This document shows, in pieces, positions 3,247 through 11,047 of a stretch of 64,000 nt of DNA. A model generated the notes under the pieces. It saw only the letters and a program-made list of their open reading frames with translations, did not search any database and was not told the DNA's origin. Source of the stretch: an uncultured Dechloromonas sp. (GTDB lineage Bacteria > Pseudomonadota > Gammaproteobacteria > Burkholderiales > Rhodocyclaceae); NCBI RefSeq assembly GCF_945957265.1, contig NZ_CAMFKO010000010.1, positions 44,885 to 108,884 of the forward strand, given 5' to 3'. The first letter of the stretch is position 1. Each line of letters starts with the position of its first letter. Both the position numbers and the translations under genes were made by a program.

Positions 3247-3664
3247 ATGGTTCATAAGCCAAGCCCCTATCTTCCAGACGGAATCGTGCAGTTCCATGCC
3301 GCGCCCGTTGCCTCCACCGAGGCGGCTGCCGCACTCCAGCGCTCGGCCACGATACAGCGCCTGAAACCCGGCAAGCCCGGAACCCGGCGGCTGCTTCAGC
3401 GTTACGGAGCAGACCTCCGTTCGTTATCGCATCGACCGCAGTACCGGCAAACGCTTTACCACCGTGGAGCTACTCGTCGAAGAGCGGGCCGGGCCTCCGG
3501 CAGCCATGGTGTGGGTGCGGGTTGGCTACGGCGAAACGGTAGTCCGCCGGCAGATCAAGGAAGCCGGCGGCGTCTGGGATGCCGAGCGCAAACTGTGGCG
3601 CGTCTCCGGACACATCGCCCACGCCCTGAAGCTGCAAAAACGCATCGTCAAGGATGCCCAATAG
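3247..3664 (+). pseudogene. Frameshifted small conserved ORF preceding the cassette array
   Basis: Two overlapping frames seem to form one former protein. Frame 1 from the ATG at 3247 gives MVHKPSPYLPDG and later RLKPGKPGTRRLLQRYGADL. Frame 2 continues as VRYRIDRSTGKRFTTVELLVEE and ends GGVWDAERKLWRV...RIVKDAQ at 3664. From memory, a common small proteobacterial hypothetical protein has GTRxLxxxYGxxLVCVRYRYD in one frame, so about five bases seem lost near 3430. The track shows only the last 66 codons from a GTG at 3464. No function is known. The stop codon lies inside the first attC-like core, so this may be the cargo of a leading cassette. A sequencing indel is also possible. Confidence 0.5.
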
Positions 3665-3764
3665 TGGCAATTACGGCCTGTCCATTATTGGAAACGAATA
3701 TCCATGTTTGGCAACAAATGGCTGGATATGGGTATGTGCAAGTGCCGTCTACTTCTAGTTGGGC
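3656..3764 (+). repeat. attC-like site 0 (left boundary of array)
   Basis: GCCCAAT at the left and GTTGGGC at the right are nearly complementary cores 109 bases apart. Between them ATATCCA and TGGATAT form an inner stem around TTTG-GCAA-CAAA with unpaired extra bases, as attC sites have. The following cassette starts at the TTGGGC. Confidence 0.6.
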
Positions 3765-3778
3765 ATCCTAGATACGCC

Positions 3779-4807
3779 ATGCTACAGATCCAGCTTTCCG
3801 AGCTCACAAAGATTCCGCAGATCGATCACACCAACCTCGGAGGACGAGGGCTGGCTTCATTGACTTTCTTCGTTGATGGTGAGTGGCATCTTTGGGTCCC
3901 AACCAACGCCGGACTGATTCGCATGAAGGGCTGGCCCGCGGAAGGGTTCTATTTTGCTGCCCAGCCAGAATCCGAAAAAGATGGATACCTGCATTTCCTA
4001 GACTTCATCGCTCAAATTGGGAACTCTCAAGGTGTCTCGCGACCGATGCAAGGGTTAATGGAAGACTTCTTCAACTTAAGCGGGTGCCTGAAGAAGTTCG
4101 ACCTACTCTTCGAATACTCTCAAAAAGATCGATCGGGGGTTTCTCGGCTAGTAATTACAGAGCTTGAGTACCTGTTCATGGTGTGCAAAAGCATATTTGA
4201 CCTCCTACAAGAGGTAGTAGCGGCTCAGTGGCAGAACATCAAGCTTCTTGACGAGACTAAGCGTAAGCGGCAACTACCGGAGACTTTCGCCGCCGTTGCC
4301 CTAGAAGCAAACCGACTGAGAACCGAGGACGAATTGGTCGCTCGCTTCCTCATTCCGAAAGAACTCGCAGCCTTCTATGTGAGGTGTGGAGCGTTCTTCC
4401 AGATACTGCGCACGTTCCGAGATAAATTCGTTCATGGAGGAAATTCGCCGGACTTGGTATTCGTTACAGAAAGAGGATTTGCTGTGCAAGCCTCAACCAA
4501 ACCGTTTTCGCTCTTTAACATCTGGAATGAAGAGCATCGCCTTCCAAACGATCTTTGCTCACTTCGTCCCGCGATTGCATATCTCGTGAATGAGACACTC
4601 AAGGCTTGCGAGGACTACGCATCAACAATTCAAACCGTTATTAAGTTCCCACCACCGGTTTGTCCTGGCCTAACCTTCTTCATGCGCGGCTACTTCAACG
4701 AGCAACTGCTCATGAATGACAAAGTGCTGCGCGAGTGCCTGTGGTGGGAAGATGCCCAACCAATCATTCCACCGGACCTGTCGCGGCAAGCCGCGCCAGT
4801 CCTGTGA
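3779..4807 (+). CDS. Cassette 1: unknown protein with possible HEPN-like motif
   Basis: The product is about 342 residues from the ATG at 3779. The longer track start at 3704 would translate through the attC site, so it was not used. No signal peptide is visible. The middle is alpha-helical and ends FRDKFVHGG, where Arg214 and His219 fit the Rx4-6H signature of HEPN domains, several of which are RNases in defence and toxin systems. That match rests on one short motif and is an inference. The N-terminal third (FVDGEWHLWVPTNAG) is unrecognised. The gene ends inside attC 1, as cassette genes often do, and is AT-richer than the host genes. Confidence 0.75.
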   Translation: MLQIQLSELTKIPQIDHTNLGGRGLASLTFFVDGEWHLWVPTNAGLIRMKGWPAEGFYFAAQPESEKDGYLHFLDFIAQIGNSQGVSRPMQGLMEDFFNLSGCLKKFDLLFEYSQKDRSGVSRLVITELEYLFMVCKSIFDLLQEVVAAQWQNIKLLDETKRKRQLPETFAAVALEANRLRTEDELVARFLIPKELAAFYVRCGAFFQILRTFRDKFVHGGNSPDLVFVTERGFAVQASTKPFSLFNIWNEEHRLPNDLCSLRPAIAYLVNETLKACEDYASTIQTVIKFPPPVCPGLTFFMRGYFNEQLLMNDKVLRECLWWEDAQPIIPPDLSRQAAPVL

Positions 4808-4822
4808 ATTCAAACGTTAGGC
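4754..4822 (+). repeat. attC-like site 1
   Basis: GCCCAAC and GTTAGGC bound a 69-base hairpin. The inner stem is CGCGGC-AA-GCCGCG, with outer GGACCTG facing CAGTCC and leaving one extrahelical base. The R'' core is the exact complement of the GTTGGGC that opens cassette 1. Confidence 0.85.
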
Positions 4823-4827
4823 ATCTT

Positions 4828-5445
4828 ATGTACCGTCTCCTCACTGTCGAAGAAATACGTTCGGGGTTGCGTAATCGTTTTGCCGAAGACGCTCTTAAGT
4901 ACCCAGATCACTTTGCGAGTCTAATTCCTGAGGCGTCGTCCGAGGCCCAGGCAACCAATATCTCTGACCGTCTAGCAGAGTTCCTCGGTTCGGCTCTGCC
5001 GCCATCCTTTGTCGCTGGAATGTGCGAATGGAATCTAGGGTGCCTCGAACTAGCCGGCATTAATTTCGGGCGCACTGGAGATTTCGTCGCGCGAGTTAAA
5101 CAGTGCAATAAGCCAGCTCCCGGCACTCAATGGTGGGAAGACCAAGAATTGGATGACCGCCCGCCGGGCTTGCTAATGATCGGGCAAGGCGATCCACACG
5201 TTGTTTTGTTAGAGCAATCAACCGGCCGAATACTTGCTTACGTAGCCGATGAAGGTTCGGCATCGTGCGCTCTTGTTGCGCCCAACCTTTCCATGTTTCT
5301 TCGCGGGCTCGGTTCGGTTTCATTGCACCCACACCAGCAGGGGCGAGATACTGAAAATCTCACAAATGACCTAGTCACCCAAATCGGAACTAACGTCAAT
5401 AGGGCATTCTGGTATGAACTTGCGATCATTCACGCAGATGCCTAA
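4828..5445 (+). CDS. Cassette 2: SUKH (SMI1/KNR4)-like protein
   Basis: The product is 205 residues from the ATG at 4828, six bases after the GTTAGGC core. The track start at 4735 lies in the previous cassette. The segment LGSALPPSFVAGMCEWNLG, then LLMIGQGDPHVVLLEQSTGRILAYVADEG, then APNLSMFLRGLG follows the layout of SUKH domains: a helix with a Leu-Pro turn, a strand run with GD, and a closing FxxFL-like helix. Many SUKH proteins are immunity proteins against contact-dependent toxins. No toxin gene is adjacent. The stop TAA overlaps the R'' core of attC 2. The family call is by eye. Confidence 0.7.
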   Translation: MYRLLTVEEIRSGLRNRFAEDALKYPDHFASLIPEASSEAQATNISDRLAEFLGSALPPSFVAGMCEWNLGCLELAGINFGRTGDFVARVKQCNKPAPGTQWWEDQELDDRPPGLLMIGQGDPHVVLLEQSTGRILAYVADEGSASCALVAPNLSMFLRGLGSVSLHPHQQGRDTENLTNDLVTQIGTNVNRAFWYELAIIHADA

Positions 5446-5535
5446 CAGGTCGGTGAAAGCCGCTCCCTACGGTCGCTGGACGCTGCGCGATAAAGCACCG
5501 CGCAGCGCCCTTTACCTTCAACGCTAGCGTTAACA
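5440..5535 (+). repeat. attC-like site 2
   Basis: GCCTAAC exactly complements the GTTAGGC that opens cassette 2. The central hairpin GGACGCTGCGCG-ATAAAGCAC-CGCGCAGCGCC carries one bulged A, the extrahelical base typical of attC. The right core is GTTAACA. Confidence 0.88.
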
Positions 5536-5537
5536 AA

Positions 5538-6041
5538 ATGGTACGCGTGCTCTATTTTTTTATGGGGTCTGCCTTGATTTTGGCAGTTATCTCGGAGTCA
5601 TATTCGCTAGCAATTGGCGCGCTAGGCCTCGGAGCCACTTACTACCTCTTCCGTGGTTCTCGTTGGATCAAGAATGAAGGAACACTATTCCCAGAAATCG
5701 CACTCCCGGCATGGGAGCACAACGATTTCGAGATTATTGATGAATCAGAGGACGAACTTATCATTCGCGGAAGCGTGCAAGCCCTTGTCGTAAATCGGCG
5801 GACCAGAACGATCTCTAACCTGAAAAGAGTTCTTTGCTCTTTTGATCGAATAAAGTGCATTCGTATCCACTACTCTGGTGCAAACAGTGATGGATACAAG
5901 CCCAGTTACTTCGTTTCACTTTCGCTTGGCGTTTTCTCGTCCATCTGCCTAGGAGAGTCCACTGACGCAAGCAACGCATCTACTGCAGCAGCCAAGCTGA
6001 GCACATGGACCAGCAAGAATGTGGTTGCTCAAACACGTTAA
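5538..6041 (+). CDS. Cassette 3: small membrane-anchored protein of unknown function
   Basis: The product is 167 residues. Residues 3-40 (VLYFFMGSALILAVISESYSLAIGALGLGATYYLF) form one or two membrane helices. A soluble, mostly beta-looking domain follows, with ELIIRGSVQALVVNRRTRTISNLKRVL; this pattern resembles membrane-anchored PH-like or DUF domains but is not firmly recognisable. The ATG lies three bases after the GTTAACA core, leaving almost no leader. Codon use is AT-rich compared with flanking genes. No enzymatic motif is visible. Confidence 0.7.
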   Translation: MVRVLYFFMGSALILAVISESYSLAIGALGLGATYYLFRGSRWIKNEGTLFPEIALPAWEHNDFEIIDESEDELIIRGSVQALVVNRRTRTISNLKRVLCSFDRIKCIRIHYSGANSDGYKPSYFVSLSLGVFSSICLGESTDASNASTAAAKLSTWTSKNVVAQTR

Positions 6042-6106
6042 CAATCCGCTCCAGCCGACCGTCAAAAAGCTGCGCTTTTGCCGTCCGGTGATTTAGCACG
6101 TTAGCC
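6036..6106 (+). repeat. attC-like site 3
   Basis: CGTTAAC matches 6 of 7 bases of the complement of GTTAACA, the core that opens cassette 3, which explains its non-consensus sequence. CAAAA-AGCTGCGC-TTTTG forms the inner hairpin. The right core is GTTAGCC. Confidence 0.75.
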
Positions 6107-6130
6107 ATTTTTTCTCGGAGTCCCGTCGCT

Positions 6131-6562
6131 ATGCGTATCGCGCACTTGTCAAAAGCTCTTGTCGCTATAGCGGCTCTCGCGGTTTATGGCGCTGCTTATA
6201 GCAGCAACGCATGTCAAGCCTCTATATGTTCATCCGAAGAAGAATGCAGGAATAAGGCTCAATGGGAAATTGAGGGAACGGTATTCGATCTAATTCGAGA
6301 CAAGCCTGGTAAAGGCTGTATGGGAGCCCCACTACCTGAACTGCAATGTGGGCAAACCGATCCTCACCCCCTCTACTTTCTTGAGGGGGTCGAAATCAAG
6401 AAAGGAAAATTCGATGTCAGCGCGAGTGGACGCACGGCCATTTCTAGAAACGGTATTTGTTTTTACCGATCACCTTCTGTATACGAGCCTCTTAAGCGCT
6501 CTGAGCGCTATCGATTTTTCGGAATCGGAGATTATGGATTCGTCTTTGTTTCTAAGCCATAG
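6131..6562 (+). CDS. Cassette 4: small exported cysteine-containing protein
   Basis: The product is 143 residues with a clear signal peptide (MRIAHLSKALVAIAALAVYGAAYSSNA). The mature part has cysteines at QASICSSEEECRNK and in GKGCMGAPLPELQCG, suggesting disulfides in the periplasm. GYAYSSNACQA is not a convincing lipobox. CTCGGAG lies 7 bases before the ATG. No family is recognised. It is one of three cassettes here whose product is directed to or through the inner membrane. Confidence 0.72.
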   Translation: MRIAHLSKALVAIAALAVYGAAYSSNACQASICSSEEECRNKAQWEIEGTVFDLIRDKPGKGCMGAPLPELQCGQTDPHPLYFLEGVEIKKGKFDVSASGRTAISRNGICFYRSPSVYEPLKRSERYRFFGIGDYGFVFVSKP

Positions 6563-6570
6563 CCGTCAAT

Positions 6571-6651
6571 GGCTAACACTCCAGTCAAATCGCACCCAGT
6601 AGGTGCTTGGACGTGCCGCAAGCGGGACGCCATTTATTTTGCACGTTAGGG
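6571..6651 (+). repeat. attC-like site 4
   Basis: GGCTAAC exactly complements the GTTAGCC opening cassette 4. GCTTG-GACGTGCCG-CAAGC forms the inner hairpin. The right core is GTTAGGG. Confidence 0.85.
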
Positions 6652-6657
6652 GTTGCA

Positions 6658-7002
6658 ATGGATCTCGACCAGTTGGCGACTGCTATTGCGCAAACATCCA
6701 ACGGCCCGGCCGCGATGCAACTCTCAGCTCTTCTCTCTGACTGGAAGACCGACGGAACGAATGTGAAAGAACTAGAAGGTACCGTTGAGCGTTTCATTAG
6801 CAGTTTGGGTGCTTCACCCGCAGTTGAGCACGCGAAGGCTGCTGACCTCTGGACTCAATTTCGAGATGAAACAATTTCCCGAATTGGGGGTATGACCATG
6901 AACGAGAGGTTGTATTCCTTCAGCCTTTTTCCCCGCTGGGACGGCGCCACAACAGATGAAGAACGAAAGGCAATCTATGCCAAGTTGCTGGCCAACCCCT
7001 AA
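6658..7002 (+). CDS. Cassette 5: small soluble protein of unknown function
   Basis: The product is 114 residues from the ATG at 6658. The track start at 6607 falls in attC 4 and is rejected. It is acidic and helical with no signal peptide. A C-terminal stretch (MTMNERLYSFSLFPRWDGATTDEERKAIYAKLLAN) resembles a segment found in various small hypothetical proteins but gives no function. The stop codon overlaps the CCCTAAC core of the next attC, the usual tight packing of cassette genes. Confidence 0.7.
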   Translation: MDLDQLATAIAQTSNGPAAMQLSALLSDWKTDGTNVKELEGTVERFISSLGASPAVEHAKAADLWTQFRDETISRIGGMTMNERLYSFSLFPRWDGATTDEERKAIYAKLLANP

Positions 7003-7065
7003 CCCTGCGGTCAACACGGACCTTGCGCATAAAGCCGCACAAGGCCGGTTACCTCCACGTTGAAC
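6997..7065 (+). repeat. attC-like site 5
   Basis: CCCTAAC exactly complements the GTTAGGG opening cassette 5. CCTTGCGC-ATAAAGCC-GCACAAGG forms an inner stem with one mismatch. The right core is GTTGAAC. Confidence 0.85.
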
Positions 7066-7071
7066 TTCACA

Positions 7072-7473
7072 ATGAATCGCACCCTCAAGGTTATTGCGTG
7101 TGGCTCAGTTGTAATTGGCGCTGTTATCGCCGGCTACTGGCTCGGCATGGAGCGCGCCTCTGACGCATATGAAAAGCATTTTTTCTCGGAAGCTTTCACA
7201 AGGGAGATTCGTGAAGCCCATAACGACCTTGGCATGCTTGAGGCATTGGAGCAAAACAAGGCAGAGGTTGCTCTACAGGTGGGGCAGCATCGCTATTACA
7301 GCCGCTTACTTCTCGCATCCGATATTGTTCAAAAATCTGCTAGTCCCGCCTCGCAGCTACTATTGAAGTCTCAAGTTATTGAGGCACACAGGCATCAGCA
7401 AGCGCACCCTTATCGCTTCCCATCCGATGCCGACCAAAAGCAATGGGAAACCTTGGTTAAAGCATCCCAATGA
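7072..7473 (+). CDS. Cassette 6: single-pass membrane protein of unknown function
   Basis: The product is 133 residues from the ATG at 7072; the track start (TTG at 7060) is the recombination core itself. Residues 6-24 (VIACGSVVIGAVIAGYWLG) form an N-terminal membrane anchor. The rest is helical and charged (EAFTREIREAHNDLGMLEALEQNKAEVALQ) and probably periplasmic, possibly coiled coil. No known family is recognised. Confidence 0.7.
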   Translation: MNRTLKVIACGSVVIGAVIAGYWLGMERASDAYEKHFFSEAFTREIREAHNDLGMLEALEQNKAEVALQVGQHRYYSRLLLASDIVQKSASPASQLLLKSQVIEAHRHQQAHPYRFPSDADQKQWETLVKASQ

Positions 7474-7474
7474 A

Positions 7475-7580
7475 ATTTAACACTCCGCTCAAAAACGCTT
7501 CTTTCGATCGCTCGGACGCACCGCAAGCGGAGCGCCTGGAAGCTGCGCCTGCAGACTTCTTCCACCGCCAACTTACGCTT
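7475..7580 (+). repeat. Degenerate attC-like site 6 (right end of array)
   Basis: The left half aligns with attC 4 (AACACTCC, then GCTCGGACGCACCGCAAGCGG against GCTTGGACGTGCCGCAAGCGG). The right side has no clear GTTRRRY core, only CAACTTACGC. It looks like a decayed or truncated last attC. Confidence 0.5.
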
Positions 7581-7586
7581 TCCGCC

Positions 7587-8033
7587 ATGAACAAAAAATC
7601 CCTCGCCATTGCCTTGTTTTCCCTCTTCGCCGCCCTGCCCGCCCTCGCCGGCCCGGATGCCGTCGCGCTGACCAGTTGCCTGAGCGACAGCACCAGCGGC
7701 AAGGATCGCAAGGATCTCGCCAAGTGGGTCTTCGCGGCTATGTCGACGCACCCGGAGATTCGCGAGTTTGCGGTGGTGACGGACAAGGTGCGCGACCAGA
7801 CATCGAATACCGTGGGGGTGCTGGTTACCCGCCTGCTGAGCGAGGATTGCGCCAAGCAGACGCAGGCCGCGATCCGCAATGAAGGGCAGGTTGCCATGCA
7901 GACGGCGTTCCGGGCGCTGGGCGGGCTGGCGATGCAGGAGCTGATGTCCAACCCCGAGGTGACGGCCTCGTTCAGCATTTTCGAGAAGTACCTGGATCGC
8001 CGGAAGATCGAGGCGGCCGTGCCGGCCAGGTGA
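7587..8033 (+). CDS. Small periplasmic protein of unknown function
   Basis: The product is 148 residues from the ATG at 7587, where a signal peptide begins (MNKKSLAIALFSLFAALPALAG). The track's longer start at 7470 would read through the attC remnant. The mature protein has CLSDSTSGKDRKDLAKWVFAAMSTHPEIREF and one later cysteine (EDCAKQ). Base composition returns to host-like GC-rich codons, so it is probably chromosomal and not a cassette. The region 8034-8180 downstream shows no gene. Function unknown. Confidence 0.75.
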   Translation: MNKKSLAIALFSLFAALPALAGPDAVALTSCLSDSTSGKDRKDLAKWVFAAMSTHPEIREFAVVTDKVRDQTSNTVGVLVTRLLSEDCAKQTQAAIRNEGQVAMQTAFRALGGLAMQELMSNPEVTASFSIFEKYLDRRKIEAAVPAR

Positions 8034-8180: not shown

Positions 8181-9116
8181 ATGCCATTGGTGTTTCTTGT
8201 GAAACGAGTCATTTGCTGTCTATTGCTTTGCTTGGGGCTGATTGCCCCGGCGGGTTTTGCCATTGCCGATCAGGCTGCTGACAAAGCGGCGCAGGAGGCG
8301 CAGATAAACGCGCTGATCAAGGAATCCGAAAACCGCTTTGTGTACGGGCCGGCCAGCATCGATCTGGGGCTTCAGGGCACGATGCGCCTGCAACGTGGCC
8401 AGGCCTTCATGCCGCCAGATATCGCCTTGAAGATATTCGCCGTGTCCGGCGTCAAGTCGGCACCGGATCTTGTCGGAATCGTCATTCCCGGCTTGCCGGG
8501 CGATGAAATGCCGACCGACAACTGGGGGATGGTGGCGGTATTCTTCCGGCCGATCGGCTTCGTCCGCGATGACGATGCCAACAACTGGGAGCACGGGAAG
8601 TTGCTGGATGCTCAGCGTAAGGGCATCGAGGAACGCAACGCGGTAGCGCGCGAAAAAGGCTTGCCGGAAAAGGAACTGAACGGCTGGGTGGAGGCACCGC
8701 GCTACGATTATGCCGGCCACCGTTTGCTGTGGGCGACGTCGAGTCAGGAAAGGGGCAAGCCGGAAACGGCGTTCGCCTTGTATGGAGCCGCCGCGCTCGG
8801 TCGCGAGGGGGTGATGATCTTCGCCTTTGGCACCGAGGCGGCAAAGCTGAATGAACGCAAGGGGTTGGCCAACGAGTTGCTGACGGGCATCCAGTTCAAG
8901 GAAGGCAAGCGCTATCAGGATTACGCGGAGGGCACCGACAAGGTTGCCGAAATTGGCCTGGCCGCTCTGGTCGGCGGCGTCGCCGCGAAAAAGCTTGGCT
9001 TGTTCGCTATGCTCGCTGTTTTTCTGGTCAAGTGGGGGAAAGTCATTGCTGTCGCCGTGGGCGGGCTGGCCTTCTTCAAACTGAGGAAAAAGAAAGCCGA
9101 TTCGGCGAGTAACTGA
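8181..9116 (+). CDS. DUF2167 family membrane protein
   Basis: The product is 311 residues with a signal sequence (VICCLLLCLGLIAPAGFA). A periplasmic-looking domain contains LGLQGTMRLQRGQAFMP, PTDNWGMVAVFFRPIGFVRDDDANNW and APRYDYAGHRLLWATS. A C-terminal transmembrane region follows (GLFAMLAVFLVKWGKVIAVAVGGLAFF), then a basic tail. The pattern fits DUF2167. No biochemical function is established to my knowledge. Its TGA shares one base with the ATG of the site-2 protease gene, so the two are translationally coupled and probably act together. Confidence 0.85.
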   Translation: MPLVFLVKRVICCLLLCLGLIAPAGFAIADQAADKAAQEAQINALIKESENRFVYGPASIDLGLQGTMRLQRGQAFMPPDIALKIFAVSGVKSAPDLVGIVIPGLPGDEMPTDNWGMVAVFFRPIGFVRDDDANNWEHGKLLDAQRKGIEERNAVAREKGLPEKELNGWVEAPRYDYAGHRLLWATSSQERGKPETAFALYGAAALGREGVMIFAFGTEAAKLNERKGLANELLTGIQFKEGKRYQDYAEGTDKVAEIGLAALVGGVAAKKLGLFAMLAVFLVKWGKVIAVAVGGLAFFKLRKKKADSASN

Positions 9117-9823
9117 TGAAATCCCTGATGCTCCTGCTGACGCTGCTCAAGTCGGGCAAGCTGCTGACGACGGCAGGCTCGATGTTCGTGTCGCTGGGGG
9201 TCTATGCGCTAGCCTATGGTTGGAAATTTGCGGCCGGCTTCATCGCCCTGCTTTTCGCACATGAAATGGGCCATTTCGTGGCCGCCCGCCAGCGCGGAAT
9301 GAAGGTCGGAGCACCGACCTTCATTCCCTTCGTCGGAGCCTGGATCGAAATGAAGGAGATGCCGCATGACGCGGAAGTCGAAGCCTATGTCGGCTTCGGC
9401 GGCCCCCTTGTTGGTACGCTGGCTGCCCTGTTCTGCTATTTTCTGGGACGCCATGCCGATAGCACCTTGCTGCTGGCCATTGCCTATGTTGGATTTTTTC
9501 TGAACCTGTTCAACCTGATCCCGATATCGCCGCTGGATGGCGGACGAATAACGGCCGTGCTTTCACCGCGCATCTGGCTGGCCGGGATTCCCGTGCTGCT
9601 CGCCTGGTTCTACTGGCGCCCGAGTCCGATGCTGATCCTGGTGGCCATCGTGGCTCTGCCGCAGGTGGTCAAAGCTTTGCGCTACAGCGCAGCTTCGGAC
9701 GAGGCGGCGTACTACGCGGTGGGTGCCGAGCACAAGCTGGTCTACACCGTCTACTACCTTGGGTTGACCGGCTTTGTGGCAATGATGACGTTTGAACTGC
9801 ACCAGCTTCTCGGGCGTGCCTGA
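9116..9823 (+). CDS. Site-2-protease-type M50 membrane metalloprotease
   Basis: The product is a 235-residue multi-pass protein. The zinc-binding HExxH motif is HEMGH in FAHEMGHFVAARQRG, and the second metal-ligand motif is NLFNLIPISPLDGG. Both are intact, so it is predicted to cleave substrates within the membrane. It lacks the PDZ domain of RseP and is short, like the M50B/FtsH-neighbour type seen as DUF2167 partners. It is coupled to the upstream DUF2167 gene by a one-base TGATG overlap and ends 33 bases from the convergent DUF1615 gene. The substrate is unknown. Confidence 0.88.
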   Translation: MKSLMLLLTLLKSGKLLTTAGSMFVSLGVYALAYGWKFAAGFIALLFAHEMGHFVAARQRGMKVGAPTFIPFVGAWIEMKEMPHDAEVEAYVGFGGPLVGTLAALFCYFLGRHADSTLLLAIAYVGFFLNLFNLIPISPLDGGRITAVLSPRIWLAGIPVLLAWFYWRPSPMLILVAIVALPQVVKALRYSAASDEAAYYAVGAEHKLVYTVYYLGLTGFVAMMTFELHQLLGRA

Positions 9824-9856: not shown

Positions 9857-11047
9857 CTACCCGGGCTGGCCGGCACCGCGCGTCAGGCAGGTCTTGTAGC
9901 GGCCTTCGACCCGTTTGGCGAACCATTCGGTCGTCAGCTTGCGGGTGATCTTCGGGCTTTTCAGGTCGATCTGCGGCATGGCCTGGCGGGGCATGGGCTT
10001 GCCCTGCTTGTCGGCGAGTTCGAAGACGCGTGTGAACAGCGGGCTGCGGCTGAAGGCGGCGGTCTTTTCCATGAGCAGGTCGCGGCGGATTTGCGGGCGG
10101 CTCATGTCCAGCTTGTAGGCGATGCTCAGCGCGGCGTCCTCGACGCTGCTGGCGACATTGGCCGGCAGGCCGTTCTCGTAGCGCAGCAGGTCGCCGTCCG
10201 GGGCCAGCGGCTTGCCGCTGATGCGGGCGAGCGCCAGCTGGAAGGCGGCGTTGCGGCTGCTGTAGCGGCCGGCATTGAAGTCGGCGAAGCGATACACCAC
10301 CTGGTCGTAGGGCACTTCGTAGTCGAGCAGGATGGCGCTGCCGAAATAGACGCCGCCGCGCCGGGTGAATACTTCGTCGCGCAGCTTTTTGGCCATCGGG
10401 TACGGGTAGCTGCGTTCCTTGACGTGCTGGCTGGCGAATTCGATGCTGACCTGCATCGGGCCGCCGGTGCGTACCGGGTTGTAGTCGGCGAAGAGCTGCC
10501 GGCCGAAGGGCAGTTCGCCGATCATGTCCTCGAACAGGGCGTTGAGCTGCTTTTCGGTTTTCAGGGCGTCGATGCGCTCGTTGTAGCTCTTGCCGTCCGG
10601 CGAGCTTTTGCTCAGCGCGGCGGTGACCAGCAGCGAAGGCACGCCGTAGCGCCCGGCCCGGGTTTCCAGCTCCTTGCGCACGATGCCGGGCAAGCCGGGG
10701 ACGACCGGGTCGGCCTGGAAGGTGGATTCCTGCTCGATGACGGCCATGGCGGCGCAATAGGTCTGCGCGGCGTGTGGCACTTCCAGGGTCTTGAAGGCGG
10801 TGTGCAGGTCTTCGGCCCAGCCGGCCCTGTCCTTTACGTAGCCGGGCAGCAACTGGGCGATGCGCTTGCGGACTTCGGCGTCGCCGAGCGAGGTCGGCCA
10901 GGCGGTGGCGGTCTTGCCGTCGGCGCGGCGGGCCATGTCGGGCGGCAGCGCCGGGCCTTCGCCCTCGCCTTCGTCGAAGGTCGAGCAGCCGGCCAGGGCG
11001 GCGAGCAGCGCGACGAGCGGGAGGGCGAGGCGGCAGGCGGGAAGCAT
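9857..11047 (-). CDS. DUF1615 domain lipoprotein
   Basis: The product is 396 residues with a lipoprotein signal peptide (lipobox LAALAGC). Family-like features include CAAMAVIEQESTFQADPVVPGLP, GPMQVSIEFASQHVKERSYPYP, FTRRGGVYFGSAILLDY and RFADFNAGRYSSRNAAFQLALA. The EQES...GPMQV layout recalls a lysozyme-like fold, so peptidoglycan contact is conceivable but is inference. It is the last gene of the minus-strand polyene operon, 9 bases after the methyltransferase. DUF1615 is not a core member of described polyene clusters, so it may be a hitchhiker. Confidence 0.85.
   Translation of the reverse strand: MLPACRLALPLVALLAALAGCSTFDEGEGEGPALPPDMARRADGKTATAWPTSLGDAEVRKRIAQLLPGYVKDRAGWAEDLHTAFKTLEVPHAAQTYCAAMAVIEQESTFQADPVVPGLPGIVRKELETRAGRYGVPSLLVTAALSKSSPDGKSYNERIDALKTEKQLNALFEDMIGELPFGRQLFADYNPVRTGGPMQVSIEFASQHVKERSYPYPMAKKLRDEVFTRRGGVYFGSAILLDYEVPYDQVVYRFADFNAGRYSSRNAAFQLALARISGKPLAPDGDLLRYENGLPANVASSVEDAALSIAYKLDMSRPQIRRDLLMEKTAAFSRSPLFTRVFELADKQGKPMPRQAMPQIDLKSPKITRKLTTEWFAKRVEGRYKTCLTRGAGQPG

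Follow-up and report, generated by a model that had tools for sequence, protein, structure and literature searches.

The window analysed here is a stretch of 64 kb (G000:C10:44885-108884) in which six one-gene cassettes, all on the plus strand, occupy positions 3758-7570. A first-pass annotation had described six consecutive, AT-rich cassettes of this kind, and they are real: the GC content of the array is 50-51%, as against about 60-72% in the surrounding DNA. Its left end needs correction, as cassette 1 opens at 3758 instead of 3656. Cassette 1 (3758-4815, +) carries a gene at 3779-4807 for a 342-aa protein without a family or a significant Pfam match, whose motif RDKFVHG resembles the RX4-6H motif of HEPN ribonucleases; judged by its sequence, this product is possibly a toxin or defence protein. 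Cassette 2 (4816-5528, +; gene 4828-5445) encodes 205 aa with a weak match to SUKH-4 immunity proteins (E 0.007, 16.9 bits) that stays below the cut-off of 25.5. Downstream lie cassette 3 (5529-6099, +; gene 5538-6041), encoding 167 aa with likely N-terminal membrane segments, cassette 4 (6100-6644, +; gene 6131-6562), encoding 143 aa with a signal-peptide-like N-terminus, cassette 5 (6645-7058, +; gene 6658-7002), encoding 114 aa, and cassette 6 (7059-7570, +; gene 7072-7473), encoding 133 aa with an N-terminal membrane segment. No significant match was found for any of the six proteins in Pfam, NCBIfam, PADLOC or PHROG, and a search of Rfam gave no match.

Integron arrays are recognised by an R'' core that complements the core opening the same cassette. 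This pairing is exact in cassettes 1 (GTTGGGC/GCCCAAC), 2 (GTTAGGC/GCCTAAC), 4 (GTTAGCC/GGCTAAC) and 5 (GTTAGGG/CCCTAAC), and extends to 6 of 7 positions in cassette 3 (GTTAACA/CGTTAAC) and to 5 of 7 in cassette 6 (GTTGAAC/ATTTAAC). Our recount was identical to that of the first-pass annotation, including the self-match of the non-consensus pair in cassette 3. By our own arithmetic, the chance of four exact matches is approximately 15 × (1/256)^4 with AAC/GTT fixed and four bases free, and approximately 2e-4 when the degenerate R/Y bases alone are free.

The attC sites were also searched with a covariance model trained, to avoid circularity, on eight sites none of which lies in the window: contig C23, with its IntI array, supplied six, and two other species (G009 and G040) one each. 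This independent model finds four of the six sites at the correct place and strand, those of cassette 1 (4754-4822, +; 65.7 bits, E 3.7e-13), cassette 3 (6037-6105, +; 43.3 bits), cassette 4 (6571-6651, +; 20.7 bits) and cassette 5 (6997-7065, +; 31.4 bits), and its sole further match in the 64 kb is a weak mirror of the first site. The attC of cassette 2 (5440-5535, +; 96 nt) falls below model R1 and is recognised by its R''/R' cores and the folding of its bottom-strand hairpin, which has a long stem (-42.7 kcal/mol). The attC of cassette 6 (7475-7575, +; 101 nt), also below the model, is degenerate: its hairpin fold is partial and its R' lacks the recombining G, reading CCAACTTACGC (CCAAC-TTACGC) as opposed to CCAACGTTACGC at the same junction in G040. 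Thus the situation that had been named beforehand as fatal to an array, with most sites scoring below threshold, did not arise. The first attC of the window is approximately 85% identical to one attC of the C23 array.

To the right of the array lies a gene for 148 aa (7587-8033, +), which in G040 stands after an attC with GTTACGC, and whose homologue in G007 is followed by attC-like sequence; it is probably an old cassette gene that became fixed at the right end. Between this gene and a conserved gene at 9857-11047 (-), positions 8181-9823 hold a DUF2167 gene and a second gene, likely for a membrane protease. The pair is seemingly missing in G009, G037 and G018, where both flanking genes adjoin.

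To the left of the array lies a gene, orf66 (3250-3664, +), that is frameshifted in the window: the N-terminal portion is read in frame with 3250 and the C-terminal portion (3464-3664) in another frame. The name refers to the 66 aa of this C-terminal piece; intact homologues have about 115-140 aa, as in G037 (140 aa; L026:5151-5570, minus strand). Relative to G037 and to G041, which is Dechloromonas sp. CZR5, five bases are missing near 3415-3420, and the window copy is either a pseudogene or the product of a sequence error. Orf66 has no explanatory family match, comparison with the PDB gave none at the level of either sequence or fold, and its predicted structure is of low confidence (pLDDT 64, pTM 0.37). 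A promoter scan upstream of the gene found none, and a plasmid search did not find orf66.

Between the orf66 stop and cassette 1 lies an attI region (3665-3757, +), in which repeats of the CCA-N4-TGG palindrome type are followed by a core, CGTCTACTTCTA joined to GTTG (3746-3761). The first-pass annotation had seen no attI. The genus supplied 14 IntI-linked attI cores for a matrix, to which the site itself did not contribute; with this matrix, position 3746-3761 ranks top of approximately 128,000 positions (19.9 versus 10.3 for the runner-up), and it coincides exactly with the junction of cassette 1. Homology to G037 covers the window from its first position as far as 3763, ending at GTTRGG, and the approximately 95 nt before this end come directly after the orf66 stop. 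An imperfect inverted repeat, AGGATGCCCAAT (3650) and GTTGGGCATCCT (3758), was considered as an attC and rejected; it is not kept in G037 or G040 and is therefore probably due to chance.

The combination of orf66 and attI recurs. Among 101 genomes, most of the genomes compared being drafts, orf66 is present in nine, the window's own and eight relatives, and in all nine the same attI core stands 83-95 nt after the stop, within a conserved region of approximately 95 nt, and is followed by a different first cassette each time. These loci lie in four chromosomal contexts, namely A (the window, G037, G041), B (G016, G040), C (G005, G026, G054) and D (G029), which have in common only a unit of approximately 530 bp consisting of an upstream ATGCTTGyGCCATA element, orf66, the repeats and the core. 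In a wider scan, which covered named genomes plus samples of the family and the class, the same order was found in Sulfurisoma, Gallionella and many other Beta- and Gammaproteobacteria: 19 distinct loci score at least 15.7 with the attI matrix, most with the core 93-96 nt from the orf66 stop, and several further loci have a divergent but recognisable core. About fourteen orf66 homologues, including some from Geobacteraceae, had no attI core. In G607, three of four orf66-family matches (L108, L116, L117, L118) are followed by attI-like cores ending in AATGTTA, as does the attI of its single intI. Two candidate loci were discarded. In G005, the 54 kb from orf66 to the 148-aa gene were considered as an array and yielded one attC alone; G001 (L022) does not serve as a clean empty site, since its copy of the 148-aa gene is truncated and the flanks enclose no orf66.

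The palindromes accompany the gene. Forty CCA-N4-TGG palindromes occur between the orf66 stop and the attI core in 27 orf66 platforms, as opposed to none in 13 IntI-linked attI without orf66, and 67 half-sites were observed versus a shuffled mean of 5.6. This association suggests that Orf66 may bind the palindromes before the core.

No intI was found anywhere in the 64-kb window, in agreement with the first-pass annotation, which had seen no integrase near the array and had advised a search of the rest of the genome. The genome, that of an Azonexus/Dechloromonas-type betaproteobacterium, has a single IntI, intact and in an open frame, on another contig, C23 (485 bits versus a cut-off of 265). 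The integron there has an attI core, TGACGTCTACTAATAGTT, at least six cassettes and the same attC family as the window; one of its cassette junctions (within L009:12693-16200) reads ATTGGGC instead of GTTGGGC. The presence of orf66 goes along with that of an integrase, as intI occurs in 13 of 13 orf66 genomes versus 165 of 286 others in the family sample (p 0.001) and, in the class sample, in 11 of 12 versus 136 of 356 (p 0.0003). In G037, whose genome is 86% complete, the platform is present and intI was not found. IntI crosses over between G and TT. The bases to the left of GTT should thus remain on the host side, so that likeness between sites in these bases would not simply be cassette-borne. 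In these bases the orphan attI resemble their IntI-linked counterparts within a genome (permutation p 5e-5), in a first test in which three linked cores had been placed partly by eye. In a later test, which left these out, used only cores chosen by score and dropped close relatives, p was 5e-5 to 3e-4, with the proviso for both values that related genomes are not independent. Both sites of G458 have TACTCACTGTTA, for example, and both of G554 have TTGGCGTTG.

The cassettes at these sites also change. G037 and G041 are 96.6% identical over the 5 kb up to attI and differ in their cassettes from the first onward, which indicates that the platform swapped cassettes without a linked intI. Across species, the arrays have attC sites in common and almost no cassette genes. 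A conserved order of the six genes would have spoken against an array, but related species do not show it; their copies of the attI are occupied by other cassettes. A gene in the C23 cassette array is homologous to one in the orphan array of G041, which hints at a common pool. As for the window itself, orf66 lacks five bases and the last attC has lost its recombining G; partial freezing of this copy is therefore conceivable. The frameshift would mean either that the gene is dispensable, or that the platform is frozen here, or that the sequence is wrong.

Taken together, the locus is probably a recurrent integrase-less integron platform, composed of orf66, attI and array, that is filled in trans by an unlinked IntI; the activity of IntI at the orphan attI is inferred indirectly, from the cassette turnover in G037 and G041 and from the core likeness within genomes. 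The first-pass annotation had called the locus CALIN-like. This holds insofar as it is a cassette array with at least two attC and no nearby integrase, the sole intI being on another contig. The label leaves out the attI behind a conserved gene and the intact IntI elsewhere in the genome, and since such an attI recurs in many species, the locus is more than a group of attC sites left behind.

CALINs are usually attributed to loss or translocation of the integrase (PMC11389934), and the locus might be a decaying remnant of an ordinary intI-orf66-attI platform that lost its intI. The frameshifted orf66 and the broken last attC would fit such decay, and in three genomes intI, orf66 and attI do stand together, with intI directly upstream of and divergent from orf66 (L085 from a Rubrivivax MAG, L097 and L098). 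However, the remaining orf66 loci have neither intI nor a remnant of it in the 1.5-8 kb examined upstream, in any of the contexts, the cassettes of G037 and G041 turned over without a linked intI, and the attI core and its spacing are kept across genera, with cores that track the local IntI. We therefore regard simple degradation as unlikely, though an origin by loss would be compatible with present use in trans; the orf66 family tree is poorly resolved, and neither the linked nor the orphan state emerges as ancestral.

It is much less likely still that IntI inserted the cassettes into an attG, a secondary site in the chromosome with no more than a likeness to attI. Such insertion is a demonstrated source of scattered cassettes (Loot et al. 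2024, as cited in PMC11389934 and PMC12444791), and conserved CALIN positions have been reported in Xanthomonas (PMC12444791). An attG site would show no conservation beyond the crossover triplet, whereas here conservation spans the whole region of approximately 95 nt after orf66, through four contexts and several orders, and the core scores as true attI sites do. The least credible reading takes orf66 for a former cassette gene followed by a degenerate attC, which an R''-like RYYYAR stretch at the gene end (GCCCAAT, GCCTAGC) and the behaviour of the module as a discrete unit might suggest, but the core fits attI and not attC, the left side has no GTT boundary, in several species the R''-like stretch and the core downstream of it do not pair, the attC model does not find the region, and orf66 was seen here neither as a free circular cassette nor inside arrays.

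In the integrase-less platform that we favour, the unlinked IntI, here that of C23, would use the bottom-strand attC hairpins of free cassettes to recombine these into the second attI in trans and would also excise them again, such that one integrase would serve two or more arrays. Orf66 might bind the CCA-N4-TGG palindromes between its own gene and the core and thereby control recombination or transcription into the array, although this is a weaker inference. Pursued further, and only tentatively, the Orf66 family could represent "split" integrons, in which a dedicated attI-binding protein and a repeat-bearing attI form a mobile integrase-less platform, with one IntI filling several separate arrays in a genome, of which G607 might be a case, and Orf66 steering where or when cassettes enter.

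Integrase-less arrays occur about as often as complete integrons do (2961 CALINs versus 2760 complete integrons; PMC9024848) and are mostly read as debris, and IntegronFinder searches no attI outside class 1 (PMC9024848). If our reading is true, part of the CALINs would be working second docking sites served in trans, an accessory integron protein would have been overlooked so far, and counting intI-linked arrays alone would underestimate the integron activity of a genome. Given that each genome offers at least two natural attI for one enzyme, it would also allow a direct test of which attI features IntI reads. In the literature covered, which included few subscription papers, we found neither a matching orphan attI or attI-associated gene nor a platform that combines attI with a conserved gene while lacking an integrase.

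With sedentary chromosomal integrons, which comprise IntI, attI and an array, the locus shares the attI core, the one-gene cassettes and the attC family; it differs in that intI is not adjacent to its attI, in the orf66-family gene on the cassette strand and in the palindromic repeats before the core. As in attG sites, IntI could place cassettes away from the integron, yet attG sites are minimal and scattered, whereas the window site is a conserved attI of approximately 95 nt behind one gene. With CALINs it has in common cassettes that are bounded by attC, the absence of a neighbouring intI and, in principle, mobilisation in trans. However, CALINs are usually viewed as degraded integrons, and unlike these the platform described here possesses a genuine attI together with a conserved gene, is found as a module in many species and shows turnover of its cassettes.
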